From assembly GCF_947072685.1 (NCBI RefSeq), contig NZ_CAMTIK010000011.1, positions 1 to 64,000 on the forward strand: a stretch of DNA of 64,000 nucleotides, in the 5' to 3' direction. A model generated the notes under the pieces. The model saw only the letters and a list, made by a program, of their open reading frames with translations, was not told the DNA's origin and did no database searches. Source of the DNA: an uncultured Cetobacterium sp. (lineage in GTDB: Bacteria; Fusobacteriota; Fusobacteriia; Fusobacteriales; Fusobacteriaceae). Of this stretch, positions 23,065 to 63,602 are shown in pieces. The position numbers were made by a program, and so were the translations under genes. Every line of letters begins with the position of its first letter. The stretch's first letter is position 1.

Positions 23065-23664
23065 TTATTTTTCTGCGACAATTAATTTTAATACATCTTT
23101 CATCATTAAATTTTTAGATGTAACTTTAGAAAACCCAACTTCTTTTATATTATTTTCAGTATCTCTTAGAAGAGATGTACCTATAACTCTTGTAGTAATT
23201 TGATTCAATATCCATAAAAAAATATTTATTATTAAATATCTACTTTTCATATGTTCTAAAAAAATAGCTTTTCCTCCAGGTTTTAATACACGAAAAATCT
23301 CTTTTAAGCCCTTTTTAGGATTGGGAACTGTGCAAAATACACAAGTTGAAACAACTGTATCGAATGTATTATCTAAAAAATTCATCTCTTCAATATTCAT
23401 CTCTTTTAATTTTATATTTGTTAAATGTAAATCTGTTATTTTTTTGTTTGCTAAATTTAACATCTCTTTTGAAAAATCTATCCCTATAATATCTAGATTA
23501 TTCTTGTAGTACTTTAGATTTGCACCACTTCCTATTCCTACTTCTAAAATTTTTCCCTCTGCCAAATCTATTGCTTCTTTTTTAAATTTCCCCATAGGCA
23601 TATTTTCTTCTATTTTATTATACAATTTTGCCCATCGATCATATCCTTTTTTAGGATCTTTCAT
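23065..23664 (-). CDS. Class I SAM-dependent methyltransferase
   Basis: 199 residues with motif I ILEVGIGSGANLKYY near residue 34, motif II IDFSKEML, and the post-motif VVSTCVFCTVPNPKKGLKEIFRVLKPGG, resembling UbiE/phosphatidylethanolamine methyltransferase-like enzymes. Substrate unknown. Its start overlaps the end of the substrate-binding protein gene by 14 bp, with GGAGAAGTGG before the ATG, so it is the last gene of a four-gene ABC importer operon. A methylation linked to the imported ligand is possible but not shown. Confidence 0.85.
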   Translation of the reverse strand: MKDPKKGYDRWAKLYNKIEENMPMGKFKKEAIDLAEGKILEVGIGSGANLKYYKNNLDIIGIDFSKEMLNLANKKITDLHLTNIKLKEMNIEEMNFLDNTFDTVVSTCVFCTVPNPKKGLKEIFRVLKPGGKAIFLEHMKSRYLIINIFLWILNQITTRVIGTSLLRDTENNIKEVGFSKVTSKNLMMKDVLKLIVAEK

Positions 23665-24520
23665 CCACTTCTCCTTTTAATATTTTATAAATATTTTCTA
23701 TCTCATCAAAAACTCTATGAGAAGCTCTCATTATCTCTGTTGAATCTATTAAATAAATTTTTTTATTTTTAAATGCATCTGTTTCCTCTATCAATGGAAT
23801 GCTCTTAATTAACTCTTCTTTTTTATCTATCCCTCTAGTTCCTATTATATATTTTGGATTTTCTTTTAAAATATATTCTGAAGATACTATTGTTTTTTTC
23901 CCATTTTTAGGCAAAATTACCTCTAAGCCTAAGATCTCTAATATTTCAACAGGTAATGAATCTTTCGAGAAAGAGGTGGGCGGAGAATCTGAATATAAAA
24001 TTAAAGCTTTTCCATCAATACTAGATTTTTTTTTAATCAAATCTAACTTATTTGTTAACTCTTTTACTAAATCTAAACTCTCTTTTTCTCTATTGGTAAT
24101 TTTTCCAAGAATTACTATATTTTTTAAAATATCATTCAAACTTCTATTCACAAAAGTTATAGAAGGAATACCAAATTTTTTTAACTCTTCATTCTGATTT
24201 CCCATAACATTGAATATTACTAAATCTGGATTAAAAGAAAGTATTTTTTCTAAAGAAGGTTTTGATACACCGCCTGCTAATGGAAGTTTATTTGTTTTTT
24301 CTTCCGGCCATATTTTTTTATTATGGTTAGCAATAGCCACAATTTTTTCTTCAGCTCCTATTTTATATAGTAATTCAACTGCACCAAAATTATAAACAAC
24401 TATTCTCTTGTACTCTTTTAATGGAATTTTTTCAGTTTTTTCACCCAAAATCATATTATCTTTTATATCTAAAGCAAGCATATTTACCGTTAATACTAAA
24501 AATATAATTAATCGCTTCAT
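23651..24520 (-). CDS. FecCD-type ABC importer substrate-binding protein
   Basis: 289 residues. N-terminal signal peptide (MKRLIIFLVLTVNMLALD), then a two-lobed TroA/BtuF-fold periplasmic binding protein: KRIVVYNFGAVELLYKIGAE near 44, LEKILSFNPDLVIF near 92, NPKYIIGTRG near 230. The superfamily binds iron-siderophores, haem or cobalamin. The ligand cannot be read from sequence. The start overlaps the ATPase gene by 4 bp. Confidence 0.88.
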   Translation of the reverse strand: MKRLIIFLVLTVNMLALDIKDNMILGEKTEKIPLKEYKRIVVYNFGAVELLYKIGAEEKIVAIANHNKKIWPEEKTNKLPLAGGVSKPSLEKILSFNPDLVIFNVMGNQNEELKKFGIPSITFVNRSLNDILKNIVILGKITNREKESLDLVKELTNKLDLIKKKSSIDGKALILYSDSPPTSFSKDSLPVEILEILGLEVILPKNGKKTIVSSEYILKENPKYIIGTRGIDKKEELIKSIPLIEETDAFKNKKIYLIDSTEIMRASHRVFDEIENIYKILKGEVDERS

Positions 24521-25299
24521 AATCTCTCCTTTTTAGGTAAAACAAATATACCGTCCTTTGTTTCCAAGATTTTAGGATCAAAACCATAGACATCTTTTAA
24601 AATATCCTCTTTTATAACTTTTTCTGGTGATCCCGAATACTTAATAATCCCATCTTTTATAAAAAGTATTTTATCACAAAATAATGATGCTAAATTTATG
24701 TCATGAATTACAATCACACCAATTAATTTATCTTCTTTTATTTTTTTCGATAAAATAGCCAACAATTCTAAAGAGTGGTTCATATCTAAAGCAGAGGTTG
24801 GTTCATCTAAAAAAATTACCTCCCCTTTTTGAATAAAAGCTCTTCCTAAAAGAATCTTTTGAAATTCTCCACCACTTAAACTAGTCACCTCTCTATCCAA
24901 ATAGCTTTGAAGCTGCAGTTCATCTATAACCTCTTTCACAACTTTATAATCTGATTCGTCTAACCCTTTGAAGTTATTTTTTATATGTGGAACTCTTCCT
25001 AATTTTAAAAGTTCTAATACATTAAAATTTATATTTTGATTCGATTTTTGAGTTATAAAAGACACTTTTTTTGAAAAATCTAAAATAGAAAATTCTTCCT
25101 GTTTTTTTTCATCCAGATAAATTTGCCCATCCTCCATTTTTAAAAATCCCATCATAATTTTTAAAAGTGTTGACTTCCCACAACCATTGGCTCCTAATAT
25201 TCCAATCAACTCACCTGAATAGAATTGATAATTTATAGATTTTAATATTTGGTTTTTCCCATATGAATATTTCAAATTTTTCAGTTCTATCCTTTTCAT
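24517..25299 (-). CDS. FecCD-type ABC importer ATPase
   Basis: 260 residues with Walker A GANGCGKST near residue 37, the signature LSGGEFQK near 143, Walker B VIFLDEPTSALD near 163 and the switch His (VIHDINLAS). It belongs to the FecE/BtuD/FepC group that energises metallophore or cobalamin import. Overlaps both neighbours by 4 bp (ATGA-type coupling). Confidence 0.92.
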   Translation of the reverse strand: MKRIELKNLKYSYGKNQILKSINYQFYSGELIGILGANGCGKSTLLKIMMGFLKMEDGQIYLDEKKQEEFSILDFSKKVSFITQKSNQNINFNVLELLKLGRVPHIKNNFKGLDESDYKVVKEVIDELQLQSYLDREVTSLSGGEFQKILLGRAFIQKGEVIFLDEPTSALDMNHSLELLAILSKKIKEDKLIGVIVIHDINLASLFCDKILFIKDGIIKYSGSPEKVIKEDILKDVYGFDPKILETKDGIFVLPKKERL

Positions 25300-26291
25300 A
25301 AGTCCGCCTTTTTGCTTTTAAATGCTAAATATATAAAAAATGGGGCTCCAAATATAGCTGTTATAATCCCTATCGGAATTTCCATTGTTGTTGATATCCC
25401 TCTAGATATTGTATCGCAAAGTAAAAGAAATATCCCACCGTAAAACATTGAAAATGGAATCAATTTAATATTACTACTTCCAAAAATCATTCTGACAATA
25501 TGTGGAATAATTAATCCTACAAATCCAATCATACCACTAAAAGCTACTGAAAACCCAATCATAAAAGTGGATACAATAAGAATTCTATATTTAAATTTTT
25601 TAATATCTACCCCTAAGCTGTGTGCTTCTTCATCCGATAATAAAATAATGTCTAACCTATATCTATTTAAATAAAAATATATTAGAGCAAGTACTAAAGG
25701 GATTGATAAAATTAAAATTTTATTCCAGTCTCCTCCTCCTAAATACCCCATTGTCCATACAACAACTCTAAAACTATCCTCTCCAATTAAATACATGGCT
25801 AGGGATATTAAAGCTCTTAAAAAAGCTGATATTGCTATTCCTACAATAAGAAGAGTCGATAAGTTTAAAGTACTTTTTTTCCCATTAGATAATTTAAATA
25901 TTATAAATGAGGTTATAAATGAAAAAGTTGAAGCAAAAATACCATAATAACTTTCTGATAAACCCAATATATAAGCTATTACAGCTCCAAATGTTCCACT
26001 GGCTGAAATACCTATAATATATGGGTCTGCCATTGGATTTCTAAAAAGAGTCTGTGTTACTGCCCCACTACTTCCTAATAACATCCCTATTATTAATGCC
26101 ATTAAAATTCTGGGTAATCTTAATTGCCAAAATATTTTGAATTCAACTGAATTTAAATCCTCTCTTCTTAGAAGAATATTGATTCCCTTAAAAAAATTTA
26201 TTTTATAATTTCCTACGAATAAAGAAAAAATAAATAAACATATCAGAAATACTAAAGATATTATTAAAATATTTTTTTTATTTAGCTTCAC
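25296..26291 (-). CDS. FecCD-type ABC importer permease
   Basis: 331 residues, about ten hydrophobic segments. Family signatures: LRLPRILMALIIGMLLGSSGAVTQTLFRNPMADPYIIG near residues 54-90 and the C-terminal GFVGLIIPHIVRMIFG near 262. Starts with GTG after a GGGGAG ribosome binding site. First gene of the four-gene importer operon; only about 16 bp separate its ribosome binding site from the upstream M23 gene's terminator, leaving no room for an ordinary promoter between them. Confidence 0.93.
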   Translation of the reverse strand: MKLNKKNILIISLVFLICLFIFSLFVGNYKINFFKGINILLRREDLNSVEFKIFWQLRLPRILMALIIGMLLGSSGAVTQTLFRNPMADPYIIGISASGTFGAVIAYILGLSESYYGIFASTFSFITSFIIFKLSNGKKSTLNLSTLLIVGIAISAFLRALISLAMYLIGEDSFRVVVWTMGYLGGGDWNKILILSIPLVLALIYFYLNRYRLDIILLSDEEAHSLGVDIKKFKYRILIVSTFMIGFSVAFSGMIGFVGLIIPHIVRMIFGSSNIKLIPFSMFYGGIFLLLCDTISRGISTTMEIPIGIITAIFGAPFFIYLAFKSKKADL

Positions 26292-27493: not shown

Positions 27494-28243
27494 TTATAAA
27501 AAGATTACAACTGGTTTGTTTGTTTTAGGATGATTTATTATCTCTACATCTATCTCAAATATTGTTTTTATATTATCAGCACAAATAATTTTATCAGGTT
27601 CCCCTTTATATAAAATTTCACCATTTTTTATTGCAAATATATAGTCACAATATTTACTAGCTATATTTATATCATGTATTACAGCTATCACTGTTTTATT
27701 TAAATTTTTAACTAAATCCATTATTTGGTATTGATATCTTATATCTAAGTGGTTTGTTGGTTCATCCAAAAGAAGCACTTCACTTTCTTGAGCTATAGAC
27801 CTAGCTATCAAAACTCTTTGCATCTCCCCACCAGATAATGTTAAAAAATTTTGATTTTTAAACGCTTTCATTCCAACCTTGTTTAGAGCTTCATCAATTT
27901 CATTTTCTGAAGTATCTTTTGAAAAAATTGAGGTTTTTGTATATCTTCCCATCTCTACAATCTCTTTTACAGTAAAATCAAAAGTTATCTTTTGATTTTG
28001 ACTCAATACAGATAATTTTTCCGCTAACCCTTTTACTGAATAGCTATTTAAATCTATATCATCCAATAATATTGTTCCATTTTTAGGTTTAAAATTTCTA
28101 TATATATTTTTTAAAAGTGTACTTTTCCCACAACCATTTTCTCCTATAATCCCTATAAATTTATATTTTTCTATCTCTAATTCAATATTTTTTAATATCT
28201 GTCTTTTATCTATGTCAAAATTTAAGTTTTTTATTTTTATCAT
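27494..28243 (-). CDS. ABC importer ATPase, BtuD/FecE-like
   Basis: 249 residues from the ATG at 28243, preceded by TTTGGAGGATAAA; an apparent TTG start at 28255 is part of this ribosome binding site. Walker A GENGCGKST near residue 33, signature LSGGEMQR near 133, Walker B VLLLDEPTNHLD near 153, and switch His in VIHDINIAS. Last gene of the operon led by the cobalamin riboswitch, so it probably powers uptake of cobalamin, cobinamide or a related tetrapyrrole/metal complex. Confidence 0.9.
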   Translation of the reverse strand: MIKIKNLNFDIDKRQILKNIELEIEKYKFIGIIGENGCGKSTLLKNIYRNFKPKNGTILLDDIDLNSYSVKGLAEKLSVLSQNQKITFDFTVKEIVEMGRYTKTSIFSKDTSENEIDEALNKVGMKAFKNQNFLTLSGGEMQRVLIARSIAQESEVLLLDEPTNHLDIRYQYQIMDLVKNLNKTVIAVIHDINIASKYCDYIFAIKNGEILYKGEPDKIICADNIKTIFEIDVEIINHPKTNKPVVIFL

Positions 28244-28244
28244 T

Positions 28245-29276
28245 TTATCCTCCAAATTTATAGCTATTTTTTCTCAACATATTCATAAAAAATGGAGCTC
28301 CCATCATAGAGGTTATTACTCCGATAGGAATTTCTTGAGTTTTAAATAAAACTCTTGTCACTATATCTGTTCCTGTTAAAAATATAGCTCCTAAAAGTAT
28401 TGAACACGGAATCAATCGTTTATGATTACTTCCTATTAGTCCTCTAGAAATATGTGGAATAACCAGACCCACAAACCCAATTACCCCAGTTGAAGCTACA
28501 ATAAAACCAGTTAGCAATGTAGATATTATAACTATAAATAGCCTCAATCTGCTTACATTAACTCCCAATGTCTCTGCTAGCTCATCCCCTGCAACCAAAA
28601 TATTTAACTCTCTATATTTTATATATGCCAAAATAGTTGAAATTAAAAGCGTTAAAAATAAAGGGGTTATTTGACTCCATCTAGCTCCGGCCAGACTCCC
28701 TGATATCCAAAACATTGCCCCTCTTAATTGCGATTCATTTTTTGCTGTAGTAACCAAAAATGTTGTTATTCCTGAAAAAAATGAAGATACTGCAACACCG
28801 GTCAAAACTAATTTTGAACTTGAATAGCTTCCCTTTCCTGAAAGATAAAATACTAAAAATGCAGTTAACGTTCCAAATATAAAAGCCCCTATTCCTGGAG
28901 AAAATTTTAACCCCATTAATCCACCTATAACTATAGATATAACTGCCCCAGTACTAGCTCCAGAGGATATACCCAATATATAAGGACTCGCTAAAGAGTT
29001 CTTTGTCAGTGCCTGCATCAATATCCCTACCAATGAAAGCCCTGCACCAGATAAAATAGCTAGTAATACTCTTGGTAATCTCAAATTCCAAACAATCATC
29101 TCTGTTGTTTTTTTCCATTCCACTTCAAATATCTCTTTTTTAAATAAATTATTTAATAATATTTTCCAAACATGAAAGGGGGATAACGAAACATTTCCTA
29201 CTGTTATTCCGATTGTTGAAATTAGAAATATAAAAAAAATAGATATTATTATTATATTTTTATAATTGTTCTTCAT
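28245..29276 (-). CDS. ABC importer permease, BtuC/FecCD-like
   Basis: 343 residues, about ten membrane segments, with LRLPRVLLAILSGAGLSLVG near residue 66, LASPYILGISSGASTGAV near 92, and GFVGLVIPHISRGLIG near 272, the standard FecCD/BtuC signatures. It pairs with the ATPase (stop and start 1 bp apart) and the binding protein upstream (14-bp gap). Riboswitch control of the operon favours a cobalamin-type ligand. Confidence 0.92.
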   Translation of the reverse strand: MKNNYKNIIIISIFFIFLISTIGITVGNVSLSPFHVWKILLNNLFKKEIFEVEWKKTTEMIVWNLRLPRVLLAILSGAGLSLVGILMQALTKNSLASPYILGISSGASTGAVISIVIGGLMGLKFSPGIGAFIFGTLTAFLVFYLSGKGSYSSSKLVLTGVAVSSFFSGITTFLVTTAKNESQLRGAMFWISGSLAGARWSQITPLFLTLLISTILAYIKYRELNILVAGDELAETLGVNVSRLRLFIVIISTLLTGFIVASTGVIGFVGLVIPHISRGLIGSNHKRLIPCSILLGAIFLTGTDIVTRVLFKTQEIPIGVITSMMGAPFFMNMLRKNSYKFGG

Positions 29277-29290
29277 GCTTTTTTCCCTTT

Positions 29291-30139
29291 CTATTCATAA
29301 AATTTTTGTGACATAAGTTTTATTCCTTCAGCTACTCTCACTCCTGCTGAAAGATAACTCAATGGTACTCTAACAAATTTATTTTCTTTTACAGCCTTAA
29401 GTTCACTTATTGGTGATCTTTCTTTTAAAAATTTTATTTTATCTTGATATGAATTATCTCCATAATCAACGATTATTATTATATCTGGATTTTTTTCTAA
29501 AATATTTTCCCAATTTCCAGCTCCAAAACTAAAATTTGAATCTGCAAATATATTTTTTCCACCGGCTATCTCAATCATCTGATTTGCTATTCCACTTCCA
29601 CCAATAGTATATGGAATATTTTCTTGGCTATCATATGCAAATACTTTTACAGCCCTATTAATATTTTTATTTTCAATTTTTTTAATCTCCATTTTCAATC
29701 TTTCAACCAAATTTTTTGCATTAATTTCTACTGAAAATTTTTCACCCAAATACATTATATCGCTATAAATATCATCTATATTTTTACTATCTTGGGATTT
29801 TGTAAAATAAACTTCTATTCCATTTTCATTTAATTCTTCTAAAGTTCCCAAATATTTTTTAGTAGCTATAGATTTCCAGCCTATTAAAAAATTGGGATTT
29901 AAAGAATAAAACAACTCTTTTGTAGGAGCTTTATTTGATAATATTGGAATTTTTTCATACTTTTCTTTTAACTCTGGTAAAATTTCATCATCTAAAAAAG
30001 CTGTTCCTATCATTTGATCTTCAGCACCAATAGAAAGAAGTATCTCAGTAGCAAACTGAGATGTCGAAACTGCTCTTAGCCTTTCCTTGGCTATTATTGT
30101 ACTAAATATTAGAATATATATACATATTATTTTTTTCAT
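29291..30139 (-). CDS. ABC importer substrate-binding protein, BtuF-like
   Basis: 282 residues from the ATG at 30139 (AAGGAGAAT before it). Signal peptide MKKIICIYILIFSTIIA, then a BtuF/TroA-type fold: VSTSQFATEILLSIGAEDQMIGT near 24, ELFYSLNPNFLIGWKS near 74, and the C-terminal ILEKNPDIIIIVDYG near 225. Lies directly downstream of two CbiK-type chelatases in the riboswitch operon, and so may bind cobalamin or a corrinoid precursor. Confidence 0.88.
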   Translation of the reverse strand: MKKIICIYILIFSTIIAKERLRAVSTSQFATEILLSIGAEDQMIGTAFLDDEILPELKEKYEKIPILSNKAPTKELFYSLNPNFLIGWKSIATKKYLGTLEELNENGIEVYFTKSQDSKNIDDIYSDIMYLGEKFSVEINAKNLVERLKMEIKKIENKNINRAVKVFAYDSQENIPYTIGGSGIANQMIEIAGGKNIFADSNFSFGAGNWENILEKNPDIIIIVDYGDNSYQDKIKFLKERSPISELKAVKENKFVRVPLSYLSAGVRVAEGIKLMSQKFYE

Positions 30140-30184
30140 AATTCTCCTTTCAATAAAAAAGTGGGAGAACAAATTCTCCCCTTT

Positions 30185-31030
30185 TTAATGACTACTTCTC
30201 TCCCCTTTTGCATAATCCGCTTTTTTTTTCAGAATATCTTTAGGTAAATTATTTTCTAAGTTTTTAGCTTTTTCTATAAATATATCCTGAATTTTTTTCA
30301 TTTCTCCCAAACCTCTTAAATCTAAAGTAACTTCATATCCCTCATTTTCTAGAGTATTTTTCCAATCTTCTGCAATGTCATTCTTCGCATGATCTCCTGC
30401 AACAAACATGAGAGGTTTTAAAATAATTTTATTTTTACCATCTCTTTTTAATTGTTTTATTACATTTTCAGCTGTTGGGTACCCTTCAACTGTTCCTACG
30501 TATAGAGGTAAATTTAAATCTCTTGCAACATAATCTAACATAGGATAAGCTGAAGTTGCTGAATGCTCAGTACCATGTCCCACCAAAACAACAGCTTCAT
30601 CATCTAATAGGTTTCCTGACTCTTGAGAAAGAACTTTTACAACTTCAAAATAGTCTTCAGGTGAAGTTAATAGTGGTGTCCCTATCCTTATATCATCAAA
30701 ACTTTCTGCTACCTGTTCCACTTCTCTTTTTAGTGCTTCCATTTCAGTCCCATTTATTATATAAGTAGGTTGAATTATTATATGGCTATAGTTATCTTTT
30801 TTAAGCTTCTCTAGCATTTGAGAAGTATTTAAATTCTCTATACCTTTTCTTGATAATATTCTATTTATTATTCTTGATGTATAAATTTGAAAAAAATCTA
30901 ATTTTGTGAACTCTTTAGATATTTTTTCATTTATAATATCAATCGTTTTTTCTTTCGTATCTTCATGAGTTGTTCCAAAATGTGCAACTATAATTGCACC
31001 TTTTTTCATATTTTTATAAAAATCCATCAT
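30185..31030 (-). CDS. cbiK: Sirohydrochlorin cobaltochelatase, cytoplasmic CbiK-type
   Basis: 281 residues. CbiK fold with the N-terminal AIIVAHFGTTHEDTKEKTID motif, a first catalytic His in VGHGTEHSATSAY (near 148) and a second in VAGDHAKNDIAEDW (near 211), matching the two His of Salmonella CbiK. It inserts Co2+ into sirohydrochlorin in the anaerobic B12 pathway. There is no signal peptide. Of two adjacent ATGs, 31027 has the better spacing to AGAGG. It follows a related exported gene by 22 bp. Confidence 0.92.
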   Translation of the reverse strand: MMDFYKNMKKGAIIVAHFGTTHEDTKEKTIDIINEKISKEFTKLDFFQIYTSRIINRILSRKGIENLNTSQMLEKLKKDNYSHIIIQPTYIINGTEMEALKREVEQVAESFDDIRIGTPLLTSPEDYFEVVKVLSQESGNLLDDEAVVLVGHGTEHSATSAYPMLDYVARDLNLPLYVGTVEGYPTAENVIKQLKRDGKNKIILKPLMFVAGDHAKNDIAEDWKNTLENEGYEVTLDLRGLGEMKKIQDIFIEKAKNLENNLPKDILKKKADYAKGERSSH

Positions 31031-31051
31031 TACCTCTTTTTATTTTTATTT

Positions 31052-31960
31052 TTACCCCTTTGAATATGCTTCTTTTTTTTCTACTATATCTACAGGTTTA
31101 TATTTTTCTAATATTTTCGCATTTTCTATAAATATATCTTGAACTTCTTTTATTTCTCCTAAAGGAATCAGTTTTACACGTACTTTATATCCTGCTTTTT
31201 CTAAATTTTCTTTCCAATCTTCAGCTATATCATTTTTAGCATGATCTCCTGCTACAAACATCAGTGGCATTAATATCACTTCTTTTTTCTCATCTTTTTT
31301 CAATTGTTTATTTACTGTTTCAAATGTTGGATATCCTTCAACAGTTCCAACATATAATGATTTATCCATATCTTTAGCCATATAATCAAACATTGCATAA
31401 GCTGAAGTTGCTGAATCATGGGTTCCATGCCCTACCATGACAATCGCTTCATTTTTTTTAAGTTTTCCTGCAGCTTTTGTCACTGCCAGTATTGTATTTT
31501 TATATTGTTCTGGATTTGTTAATAATGCTGAACCAACTCTTATTTCTTTAAAATCTTTATCAAATTTTTGTACTTCTTTTTTTATCGATTCCATTTCAAT
31601 ACCATCAATTATATTTGTTGGCTGAATAATTATATTTTCGTAACCTTGTTTTTTTAAAGAATTTAATACCTGTGTTGTATTATATTTACTTATTCCTTGA
31701 TTTTCAAATAATCTTTTATTAATAATTCTTGAAGTGTAGGCTTCGAAAACATCCGCTTTTCCTTCAAAAGCTTTAATAGCTTTTTGATTTATTGAATTAA
31801 TTGTTTTTTCTCTTGTATCCCCATGGGTTGTTCCAAAGTGTGTCATTATTACAGCACTTTTCCCACCGTTATAAAAATTTGATTTCACATAGCTTTCATT
31901 TTCAGATGAAAAGCTTAAAATTGAACTTAAACAAAATAATGACAAAAATATTTTCTTCAT
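31052..31960 (-). CDS. cbiK: Exported CbiK-type chelatase (periplasmic)
   Basis: 302 residues, a paralogue of the next gene but with an N-terminal signal peptide (MKKIFLSLFCLSSILSFSSE). The catalytic His are kept: VGHGTHDSATSAY (near 178) and VAGDHAKNDIAEDW (near 238). A periplasmic CbiK (CbiK-P) is known from Desulfovibrio; its in vivo role may be haem/iron or cobalt related. First gene after the cobalamin riboswitch. Why a chelatase would work outside the cytoplasm is open; it could charge or recycle metal-free corrinoid/porphyrin before import by the ABC system downstream. Confidence 0.9.
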   Translation of the reverse strand: MKKIFLSLFCLSSILSFSSENESYVKSNFYNGGKSAVIMTHFGTTHGDTREKTINSINQKAIKAFEGKADVFEAYTSRIINKRLFENQGISKYNTTQVLNSLKKQGYENIIIQPTNIIDGIEMESIKKEVQKFDKDFKEIRVGSALLTNPEQYKNTILAVTKAAGKLKKNEAIVMVGHGTHDSATSAYAMFDYMAKDMDKSLYVGTVEGYPTFETVNKQLKKDEKKEVILMPLMFVAGDHAKNDIAEDWKENLEKAGYKVRVKLIPLGEIKEVQDIFIENAKILEKYKPVDIVEKKEAYSKG

Positions 31961-31983
31961 AAAAAAACCTCCCTACTTTTAAT

Positions 31984-32036
31984 AAAAAAATTAAAAATTC
32001 GAGAGAAGAGCAAAAAATATATAGATTCTCTTCTCT
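31984..32036 (-). terminator. Riboswitch expression-platform terminator
   Basis: On the minus strand, AGAGAAGAG (32028-32036) pairs with CTCTTCTCT (32002-32010) across a 17-nt loop and is followed by AT-rich sequence with T runs. It lies between the cobalamin aptamer and the first gene, as expected for premature termination when B12 is bound. Confidence 0.75.
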
Positions 32037-32044
32037 GTCCTCGC

Positions 32045-32211
32045 AGAATTTTGTTAATGGCAGGTCTCCTGACTCGGCTTCGTCCTACTTGTAGCCCTTC
32101 CCAAAGTTTATTACACTTCAGTGGTTTATCTACTTTCGTCATCCTTACAGTGGCGGGACCGTTTGAGATTTTCACTCAATTCCCTTTTAATCGAATTGAA
32201 CCATAACACTT
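32045..32211 (-). promoter_or_regulatory. Cobalamin (B12) riboswitch
   Basis: Read on the minus strand, the region has the conserved parts of the cobalamin aptamer in order: CGGTCCCGCCACTGTAA, GGGAAGGGCTAC, and the B12 box in CCGAGTCAGGAGACCTGCC. It stands upstream of the two CbiK genes and the BtuFCD-like importer, so the operon should be switched off when cobalamin is plentiful. The short reading frame crossing this region is not a gene. Confidence 0.96.
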
Positions 32212-32223
32212 TAAATATAGTTA

Positions 32224-32252
32224 ATATTATCATTTTATCGTGCAAATTTCAA
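32224..32252 (-). promoter_or_regulatory. Promoter of the riboswitch operon
   Basis: Minus strand TTGAAA (32247-32252), 17 bp, TAATAT (32224-32229); transcription would start a few bases before the aptamer. Confidence 0.65.
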
Positions 32253-63276: not shown

Positions 63277-63352
63277 GGAAGCATAGCTCAGTTGGGAGAG
63301 CACCTGCCTTACAAGCAGGGGGTCACTGGTTCAAGTCCAGTTGTTTCCACCA
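63277..63352 (+). tRNA. tRNA-Val (anticodon TAC)
   Basis: Acceptor GGAAGCA/TGTTTCC, anticodon loop CTTACAA (TAC), T loop GGTTCAAGTCC, encoded CCA. 76 nt. Confidence 0.96.
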
Positions 63353-63358
63353 TAATTT

Positions 63359-63435
63359 GGGGGTGTAGCTCAGTTGGTTAGAGCGCATGCCTGTCACGCA
63401 TGAGGTCGCGAGTTCGACCCTCGTCACTCCCGCCA
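63359..63435 (+). tRNA. tRNA-Asp (anticodon GTC)
   Basis: Acceptor GGGGGTG/CACTCCC, anticodon loop CTGTCAC (GTC), T loop AGTTCGACCC, discriminator G, encoded CCA. 77 nt. Confidence 0.96.
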
Positions 63436-63436
63436 T

Positions 63437-63512
63437 GCCCAGATAGCTCAGTCGGTAGAGCAGGGGACTGAAAATCCCCGTGTCGGTGGTTCGATTCCGC
63501 CTCTGGGCACCA
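63437..63512 (+). tRNA. tRNA-Phe (anticodon GAA)
   Basis: Acceptor GCCCAGA/TCTGGGC, anticodon loop CTGAAAA (GAA), T loop GGTTCGATTCC, encoded CCA. 76 nt; only one base separates it from tRNA-Asp. Confidence 0.96.
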
Positions 63513-63527
63513 TTTAATTTAATAGAA

Positions 63528-63602
63528 GGCGACGTCGCCAAGTGGTAAGGCAGAGGTCTGCAAAATCTCTATTCACCAGTTCAAATCTGGTCGTCGCCTC
63601 CA
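63528..63602 (+). tRNA. tRNA-Cys (anticodon GCA)
   Basis: Acceptor GGCGACG/CGTCGCC, anticodon loop CTGCAAA (GCA), T loop AGTTCAAATCT, discriminator T, encoded CCA. 75 nt. Confidence 0.96.

Follow-up and report, generated by a model that had tools for sequence, protein, structure and literature searches.

The DNA analysed here (the window) is a 64,000-nucleotide stretch of a Cetobacterium genome (2.15 Mb assembly), Cetobacterium being a fish-gut-type bacterium. The locus at 27494-32252 on its minus strand encodes, behind a cobalamin (B12) riboswitch, two class-II chelatases of the CbiK family, one with a predicted Sec signal peptide (CbiKx) and one without (CbiKc), followed by an ATP-binding cassette (ABC) importer of the FecCD type. 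Compartments given below are predictions, with signal peptides judged from sequence pattern. The features are, in order of transcription:

32042..32220, minus strand: cobalamin riboswitch aptamer, RF00174 (Rfam covariance model, 106.4 bits against a gathering threshold of 31.5)
31975..32048, minus strand: terminator-like expression platform, a hairpin followed by a U-run in the gap between aptamer and first gene (RNA fold, -16.3 kcal/mol)
31052..31960, minus strand: CbiKx, class-II chelatase (CbiK family) of 302 aa with a predicted Sec signal peptide, residues 1 to ~18 (PF06180, 240 bits)
31886..31888, minus strand: GTG codon for Val25 of CbiKx, at the position matching the internal start of Fusobacterium CbiK, without a Shine-Dalgarno sequence (codon comparison)
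30185..31030, minus strand: CbiKc, class-II chelatase of 280/281 aa without signal peptide, likely a cytosolic cobaltochelatase (PF06180, 259 bits)
30163..30180, minus strand: intrinsic terminator at the boundary between chelatases and importer (kept in 10/10 Cetobacterium genomes)
29291..30139, minus strand: ABC substrate-binding protein, Peripla_BP_2, with its own signal peptide (PF01497, 79 bits)
28245..29276, minus strand: FecCD-family permease (PF01032, 320 bits)
27494..28243, minus strand: ABC ATPase of the importer (PF00005, 122 bits)

Chelatases, importer and their control

CbiKx and CbiKc are 58% identical to each other. Their PF06180 matches cover the whole domain and exceed the cut-off of 26.2 bits, while neither reaches the NCBIfam equivalog for sirohydrochlorin cobaltochelatase (scores of 207 and 222 bits, cut-off 400); they are CbiK family members, not certified equivalogs. 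The closest PDB structures for both copies are 1qgo, 9b86 and 2xvx (Salmonella CbiK, Porphyromonas gingivalis FetB and Desulfovibrio vulgaris CbiK). The catalytic His/Glu/His residues of the C-terminal half are retained as H178, E208 and H240 in CbiKx, with counterparts in CbiKc; in Salmonella CbiK, His145 and His207 are the corresponding catalytic residues by role (PMC7689651).

The two copies differ at their N-termini. CbiKx begins with MKKIFLSLFCLSSILSFS, which contains lysines, a hydrophobic core and small residues at the predicted cleavage site, and continues after that site with SENES. CbiKc begins with MDFYKNMKKG, directly at the domain, and an in-frame stop codon just upstream excludes a signal peptide. 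Purifying selection acts on both Cetobacterium copies: the ratio of nonsynonymous to synonymous substitution (dN/dS) is ~0.05 for CbiKx against the nearest species, and in the comparison of genomes G000 and G009, dN and dS are 0.024 and 0.44 for the exported copy, 0.127 and 0.92 for the cytosolic one.

The importer shares its three families with the BtuF-BtuCD/FecCD importers, as well as the B12 riboswitch upstream, and its superfamilies are right for BtuFCD; unlike them, it reaches no NCBIfam BtuF, BtuC or BtuD cut-off. The best solved relative of the binding protein is 4n01, and the protein also resembles haem binders, weakly. Its listed TTG start at 30172 is too early, and an ATG at 30139 carries a ribosome site. 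Another FecCD-type importer, comprising permease, ATPase and binding protein, lies at 23651-26291 of the window on the minus strand, after a LysM/M23-like peptidase gene, and has no B12 riboswitch.

The expression-platform hairpin has a z score of -2.5, and 4/200 shuffles folded equally well. Between CbiKc and the importer, the stems of the terminator at 30163-30180 have changed yet remain complementary in all ten Cetobacterium genomes checked, so that a single operon would mean partial read-through, and expression of the importer is probably below that of the chelatases. An earlier note on this DNA had described a B12-riboswitch operon with two paralogous chelatases, one bearing a signal peptide, and a BtuFCD-like importer. 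The chelatase pair is confirmed by both PF06180 matches and by the differing N-termini, and the riboswitch by its RF00174 score; the single operon is called into question by the conserved terminator, and the importer claim is supported as linkage to a FecCD-type system.

Exported CbiK in Cetobacterium and other lineages

Four B12 riboswitches are present in the genome, ahead of the chelatase locus, an otherwise complete cob operon, and two TonB receptors, one of which is followed by a binding protein. The cob operon contains cbiP, B, cobC-like, A, C, D, E, T, L, F, G, H and J (gene names by sequence reading). We found no chelatase gene in it, and neither a further CbiK nor any CbiX in the genome beyond CbiKx and CbiKc; here and below, absences depend on the assemblies and on profile sensitivity, and the class-II searches covered CbiK and CbiX, CobN-type chelatases falling outside them. 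HemC, HemD-CobA and a SirC-like protein are encoded, so sirohydrochlorin can be made in the cytosol, where CbiKc would be the natural chelatase. Since the pair are the only class-II chelatases and the cob operon lacks one, CbiKc is likely the cytosolic cobaltochelatase that serves it. Elsewhere in the window, four tRNA genes cluster at 63277-63599 on the plus strand.

CbiK-profile matches occur in 74 of 98 Fusobacteriota genomes (a few are short CbiX-type hits), and CbiD in 76. The neighbourhood comparison across the phylum that the earlier note had proposed places exported CbiK in B12-riboswitch import loci in several genera. CbiKc heads the importer genes almost throughout Cetobacterium, with CbiKx in tandem in G000, G009 and G013 and otherwise at a separate site. 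Members of Fusobacterium group g4 mostly have a single exported CbiK gene, transcribed away from genes for binding protein, permease and ATPase. In Psychrilyobacter (g14) the order is exported CbiK-permease-ATPase-binding protein-cbiC-cbiD and onward, and in G055 the cluster runs on into hem genes. Leptotrichiaceae have the short CbiK form only. A B12-box motif (spot-checked with Rfam) lies upstream of 31/36 exported Fusobacteriaceae copies versus 10/30 signal-less copies, and by motif count the catalytic His/Glu/His is kept in 42/46 exported copies. Many exported CbiKs (L062, L065, L067, L111, L112, L113 and others) are predicted to have a His, a possible metal ligand, as mature N-terminus directly after an AxA cleavage motif; the window copy does not. 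In one Fusobacterium genome (G025; L067 3250-9428), four B12 riboswitches fall within ~6 kb, including those before exported CbiK, the importer and ExbB-ExbD-TonB.

An exported CbiK is the sole class-II chelatase, with no CbiX, in 13 Fusobacteriaceae genomes (at least 97% complete) that encode CbiD and HemC (G018, G021-G023, G025-G029, G031, G034, G035 and G055). These genomes also encode HemD-CobA and SirC-like proteins. That a CbiX had been missed in G055 through a gap was rejected, as the 14 kb that follow on the cob contig contain no such open reading frame. A role of the SirC-like protein, whose gene is located in the hem operon, as cobalt chelatase is weakened by loss of a residue: CysG Asp104 is needed for cobalt chelation, the D104A variant being inactive (PMC7018833), and three SirC-like proteins of Fusobacteriota have Thr or Ser at the equivalent position. 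Another member of the Fusobacterium group, G020, has CbiD and HemC and no CbiK or CbiX that we could find, which may reflect a gap in the assembly or a different chelatase.

Beyond Fusobacteriota, exported CbiKs of Bacteroidota give the best genome matches (41-49% identity). Among 17 Bacteroidota genomes CbiD was present in all, and HemC was not found in 16; with CbiD and without HemC, these organisms would need to import the ring. Organisms of this kind have been termed 'tetrapyrrole precursor salvagers', with P. gingivalis an early example (PMC6461909). Their exported CbiK is placed between TonB receptor/binding protein genes and corrin genes, as in Dysgonomonas macrotermitis (L117), where a B12 riboswitch is followed by the genes for a TonB receptor, a binding protein and exported CbiK and then by cbiH-cbiC, cbiE-cbiT and cbiG-cbiF. 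Such loci are fitting for periplasmic cobalt insertion into an imported ring. PepSY-TM proteins adjoin exported CbiK in several Bacteroidota corrin loci (L112 9368-10846, L113, L114, L118).

Duplication and a predicted internal start codon

CbiKx and CbiKc of Cetobacterium form sister clades (support 100/99), which makes the duplication local. A tree with all exported copies as a single clade was rejected (p-AU 6e-41), so the signal peptide has changed several times, with eight state changes on the tree. Linkers kept in signal-less copies, such as EGYIKSNF and DFYK, suggest that it was lost in some lines. A further, independent pair, again with a signal-less and an exported CbiK in tandem, occurs in Propionispora (L169 4964-6840), near three B12 riboswitches.

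In nine Fusobacterium species, the linker after the signal peptide reads GGA-GG(A/G)-TAY/TTT-GTG, which places a Shine-Dalgarno sequence 4 bases before an in-frame GTG at residue 29; G035 shows the same arrangement. Under synonymous randomisation such a site arises by chance with a frequency of 6-13% per species. Among 50 protein-invariant valine columns in CbiK and the three importer genes of these species, V29 alone has one codon throughout, and that codon, GTG, serves 10% of valines. In G019 the signal-peptide codons have been lost and CbiK starts at the same GTG with what is apparently the old Shine-Dalgarno sequence; this signal-less protein is the genome's sole CbiK (L063 9923), and its B12 riboswitch and importer linkage are gone too. 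The internal site is present in 10/15 sole exported copies versus 1/21 exported copies with a cytosolic companion (Fisher p 1e-4, kinship uncorrected). It was not seen in Psychrilyobacter or in most other exported copies, one TTG in G060 being treated as chance.

These observations predict that Fusobacterium CbiK is made as a long, exported isoform and a short, cytosolic one. No internal start is claimed for the window CbiKx itself, in which the GTG is present and the Shine-Dalgarno sequence absent. The start of CbiKc lies two codons beyond this GTG position, and on the simplest reading the window pair would be the two isoforms, split after duplication.

Proposed function of the exported chelatase

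We propose that the locus is a B12-riboswitch module within the anaerobic B12 pathway that keeps one class-II cobaltochelatase family on both sides of the inner membrane, CbiKc for synthesis and CbiKx on the import side, the pair being a duplicated and specialised ancestral gene; our confidence in this proposal is evenly poised. CbiKc would insert cobalt in the cytosol for the cob operon that has no chelatase of its own. CbiKx would be exported and belong to the import side of the B12 regulon, together with the TonB receptors, binding protein and FecCD importer; its most likely task there would be to bind a sirohydrochlorin-type ring, insert or retain cobalt, and hand the cobalt ring to the importer. 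The single ancestral gene, which in Fusobacterium still apparently makes a long exported isoform and, from the internal GTG, a short cytosolic one, would have been split into the Cetobacterium pair.

The specific role for CbiKx that we prefer, in which cobalt would enter a sirohydrochlorin-type ring in the periplasm and the FecCD importer would then take the ring up, is more tentative, and we would give it roughly a third of our belief. Metallation in the periplasm is compatible with the data and is favoured by the Bacteroidota loci in genomes that lack HemC. Held with about equal reserve is the full chain in which alternative initiation supplies both compartments, Cetobacterium has split the two forms into a tandem pair, the exported form metallates sirohydrochlorin in the periplasm and cobalt-sirohydrochlorin enters through the FecCD importer. 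The division of labour suggested in the earlier note is better grounded than before, through the cob operon without a chelatase, the purifying selection on both copies and the exported CbiKs in riboswitch import loci.

Several points weigh against this proposal. Most Cetobacterium species have CbiKc, not CbiKx, beside the importer, and we know of no sirohydrochlorin exporter. Parsimony does not fix whether the signal peptide was gained or lost. The nine Fusobacterium species are related and moderately diverged (a median of 33% of shared codons differ), so that the codon statistics are not independent; the spacing of 4 nt between Shine-Dalgarno sequence and start is short, and GTG is a weak start. 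Dual initiation does not cover all cases, the sole exported copies of G022, G031, G034 and G055 being without the site.

D. vulgaris also has a CbiK pair, CbiKC and CbiKP, one of them exported. At the position of its His96, presumably the haem ligand, both window copies align a Glu, which speaks against the same haem site in them. In Desulfovibrio, cbiK-cbiL and btuCDF are under the control of a single B12 element (Rodionov et al. 2004, PMC545781), and P. gingivalis encodes an exported CbiK, IhtB, with IhtA and IhtCDE in a similar set (PMC10913741); given these precedents, joining CbiK to an importer under B12 control is nothing new. Like the D. vulgaris pair (2xvx), the window locus has two CbiK paralogues, one predicted to be exported, and, like the Desulfovibrio locus with btuCDF (PMC545781), it joins B12 riboswitch control to an importer; it differs in that the pair stands in tandem under one riboswitch, arose within Cetobacterium, has the Glu noted above in both copies and is encoded without cbiL. 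As with IhtB/FetB (9b86), an exported CbiK-family protein is encoded with an ABC importer, the P. gingivalis set also including an outer-membrane receptor; IhtB, however, is a lipoprotein assigned to haem/iron, whereas the exported chelatase of the window carries a plain signal peptide and is accompanied by a B12 riboswitch and a cytosolic paralogue. The best-scoring solved relative of both copies is Salmonella CbiK (1qgo/2xwp), which has the same active-site residues and is cytosolic and single.

The likeness to IhtB and FetB raises the alternative that exported CbiKx binds or dechelates tetrapyrroles for haem/iron uptake and has no part in B12 metabolism. FetB is the second-best PDB match of CbiKx, over its full length including the signal peptide; IhtB is encoded with a TonB receptor and an ABC importer, and the window binding protein has its weak resemblance to haem binders. 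This role is nonetheless improbable, as B12 riboswitches directly control 31 of the 36 exported Fusobacteriaceae copies, exported CbiK occurs inside corrin-pathway operons in Psychrilyobacter and Bacteroidota, and the presumed haem ligand is replaced by Glu in both window copies. CbiKx might instead be a non-catalytic periplasmic binder that acts as a buffer for cobalt or corrinoids and supplies the importer's binding protein with them, in keeping with the Fusobacterium TonB/ExbBD, importer and CbiKx genes standing side by side, each with its own B12 riboswitch, and with the mature N-terminal His of many exported copies. We consider this unlikely: catalytic residues kept in 42/46 exported copies are more than a binder needs, and the window copy is without the His.

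Two further alternatives we hold to be very improbable. If the signal peptide were ineffective, the precursor would stay or work in the cytosol and the copies would be a dosage pair for B12 synthesis, which agrees with two intact active sites under one riboswitch and with sole copies in B12-pathway genomes that carry a signal peptide; against it, a similar signal-peptide architecture persists over several genera and phyla, the copies keep distinct N-termini, and between G000 and G009 evolution has been slower in the exported copy than in the cytosolic one (dN 0.024 versus 0.127). In the sole-copy relatives, cobalt might be inserted by another enzyme (SirC-like, an unknown one or a CobN-type chelatase), the exported CbiK having a role unrelated to synthesis. 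The SirC-like protein of the hem operon could be such an enzyme, and CobN lay outside the searches made, but the Thr/Ser replacement of CysG Asp104 in the three SirC-like proteins (PMC7018833) and the fact that CbiKx comes first in the cob-hem gene cluster of G055 argue otherwise.

What appears to be new, as read from genome sequences, is the conserved internal start, the probable assignment of CbiKc as chelatase of the cob operon, and two placements of exported CbiK: as the sole class-II cobaltochelatase that can be recognised in many Fusobacteriaceae possessing a B12 pathway, and at the entry of the corrin operon in tetrapyrrole-auxotrophic Bacteroidota. To our knowledge, the exported CbiKs of Desulfovibrio and Porphyromonas have no settled role. 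The proposal made here renders two puzzles testable, namely what exported CbiK does, and why a corrin pathway persists in P. gingivalis and its relatives, which do not make the precursor for it. The conserved internal start, if it is used, would be an economical way of providing both sides of a membrane with a single metal-insertion enzyme. If the proposed role is correct, import of cobalt-sirohydrochlorin would explain how Bacteroidota unable to make tetrapyrroles use the corrin pathway.

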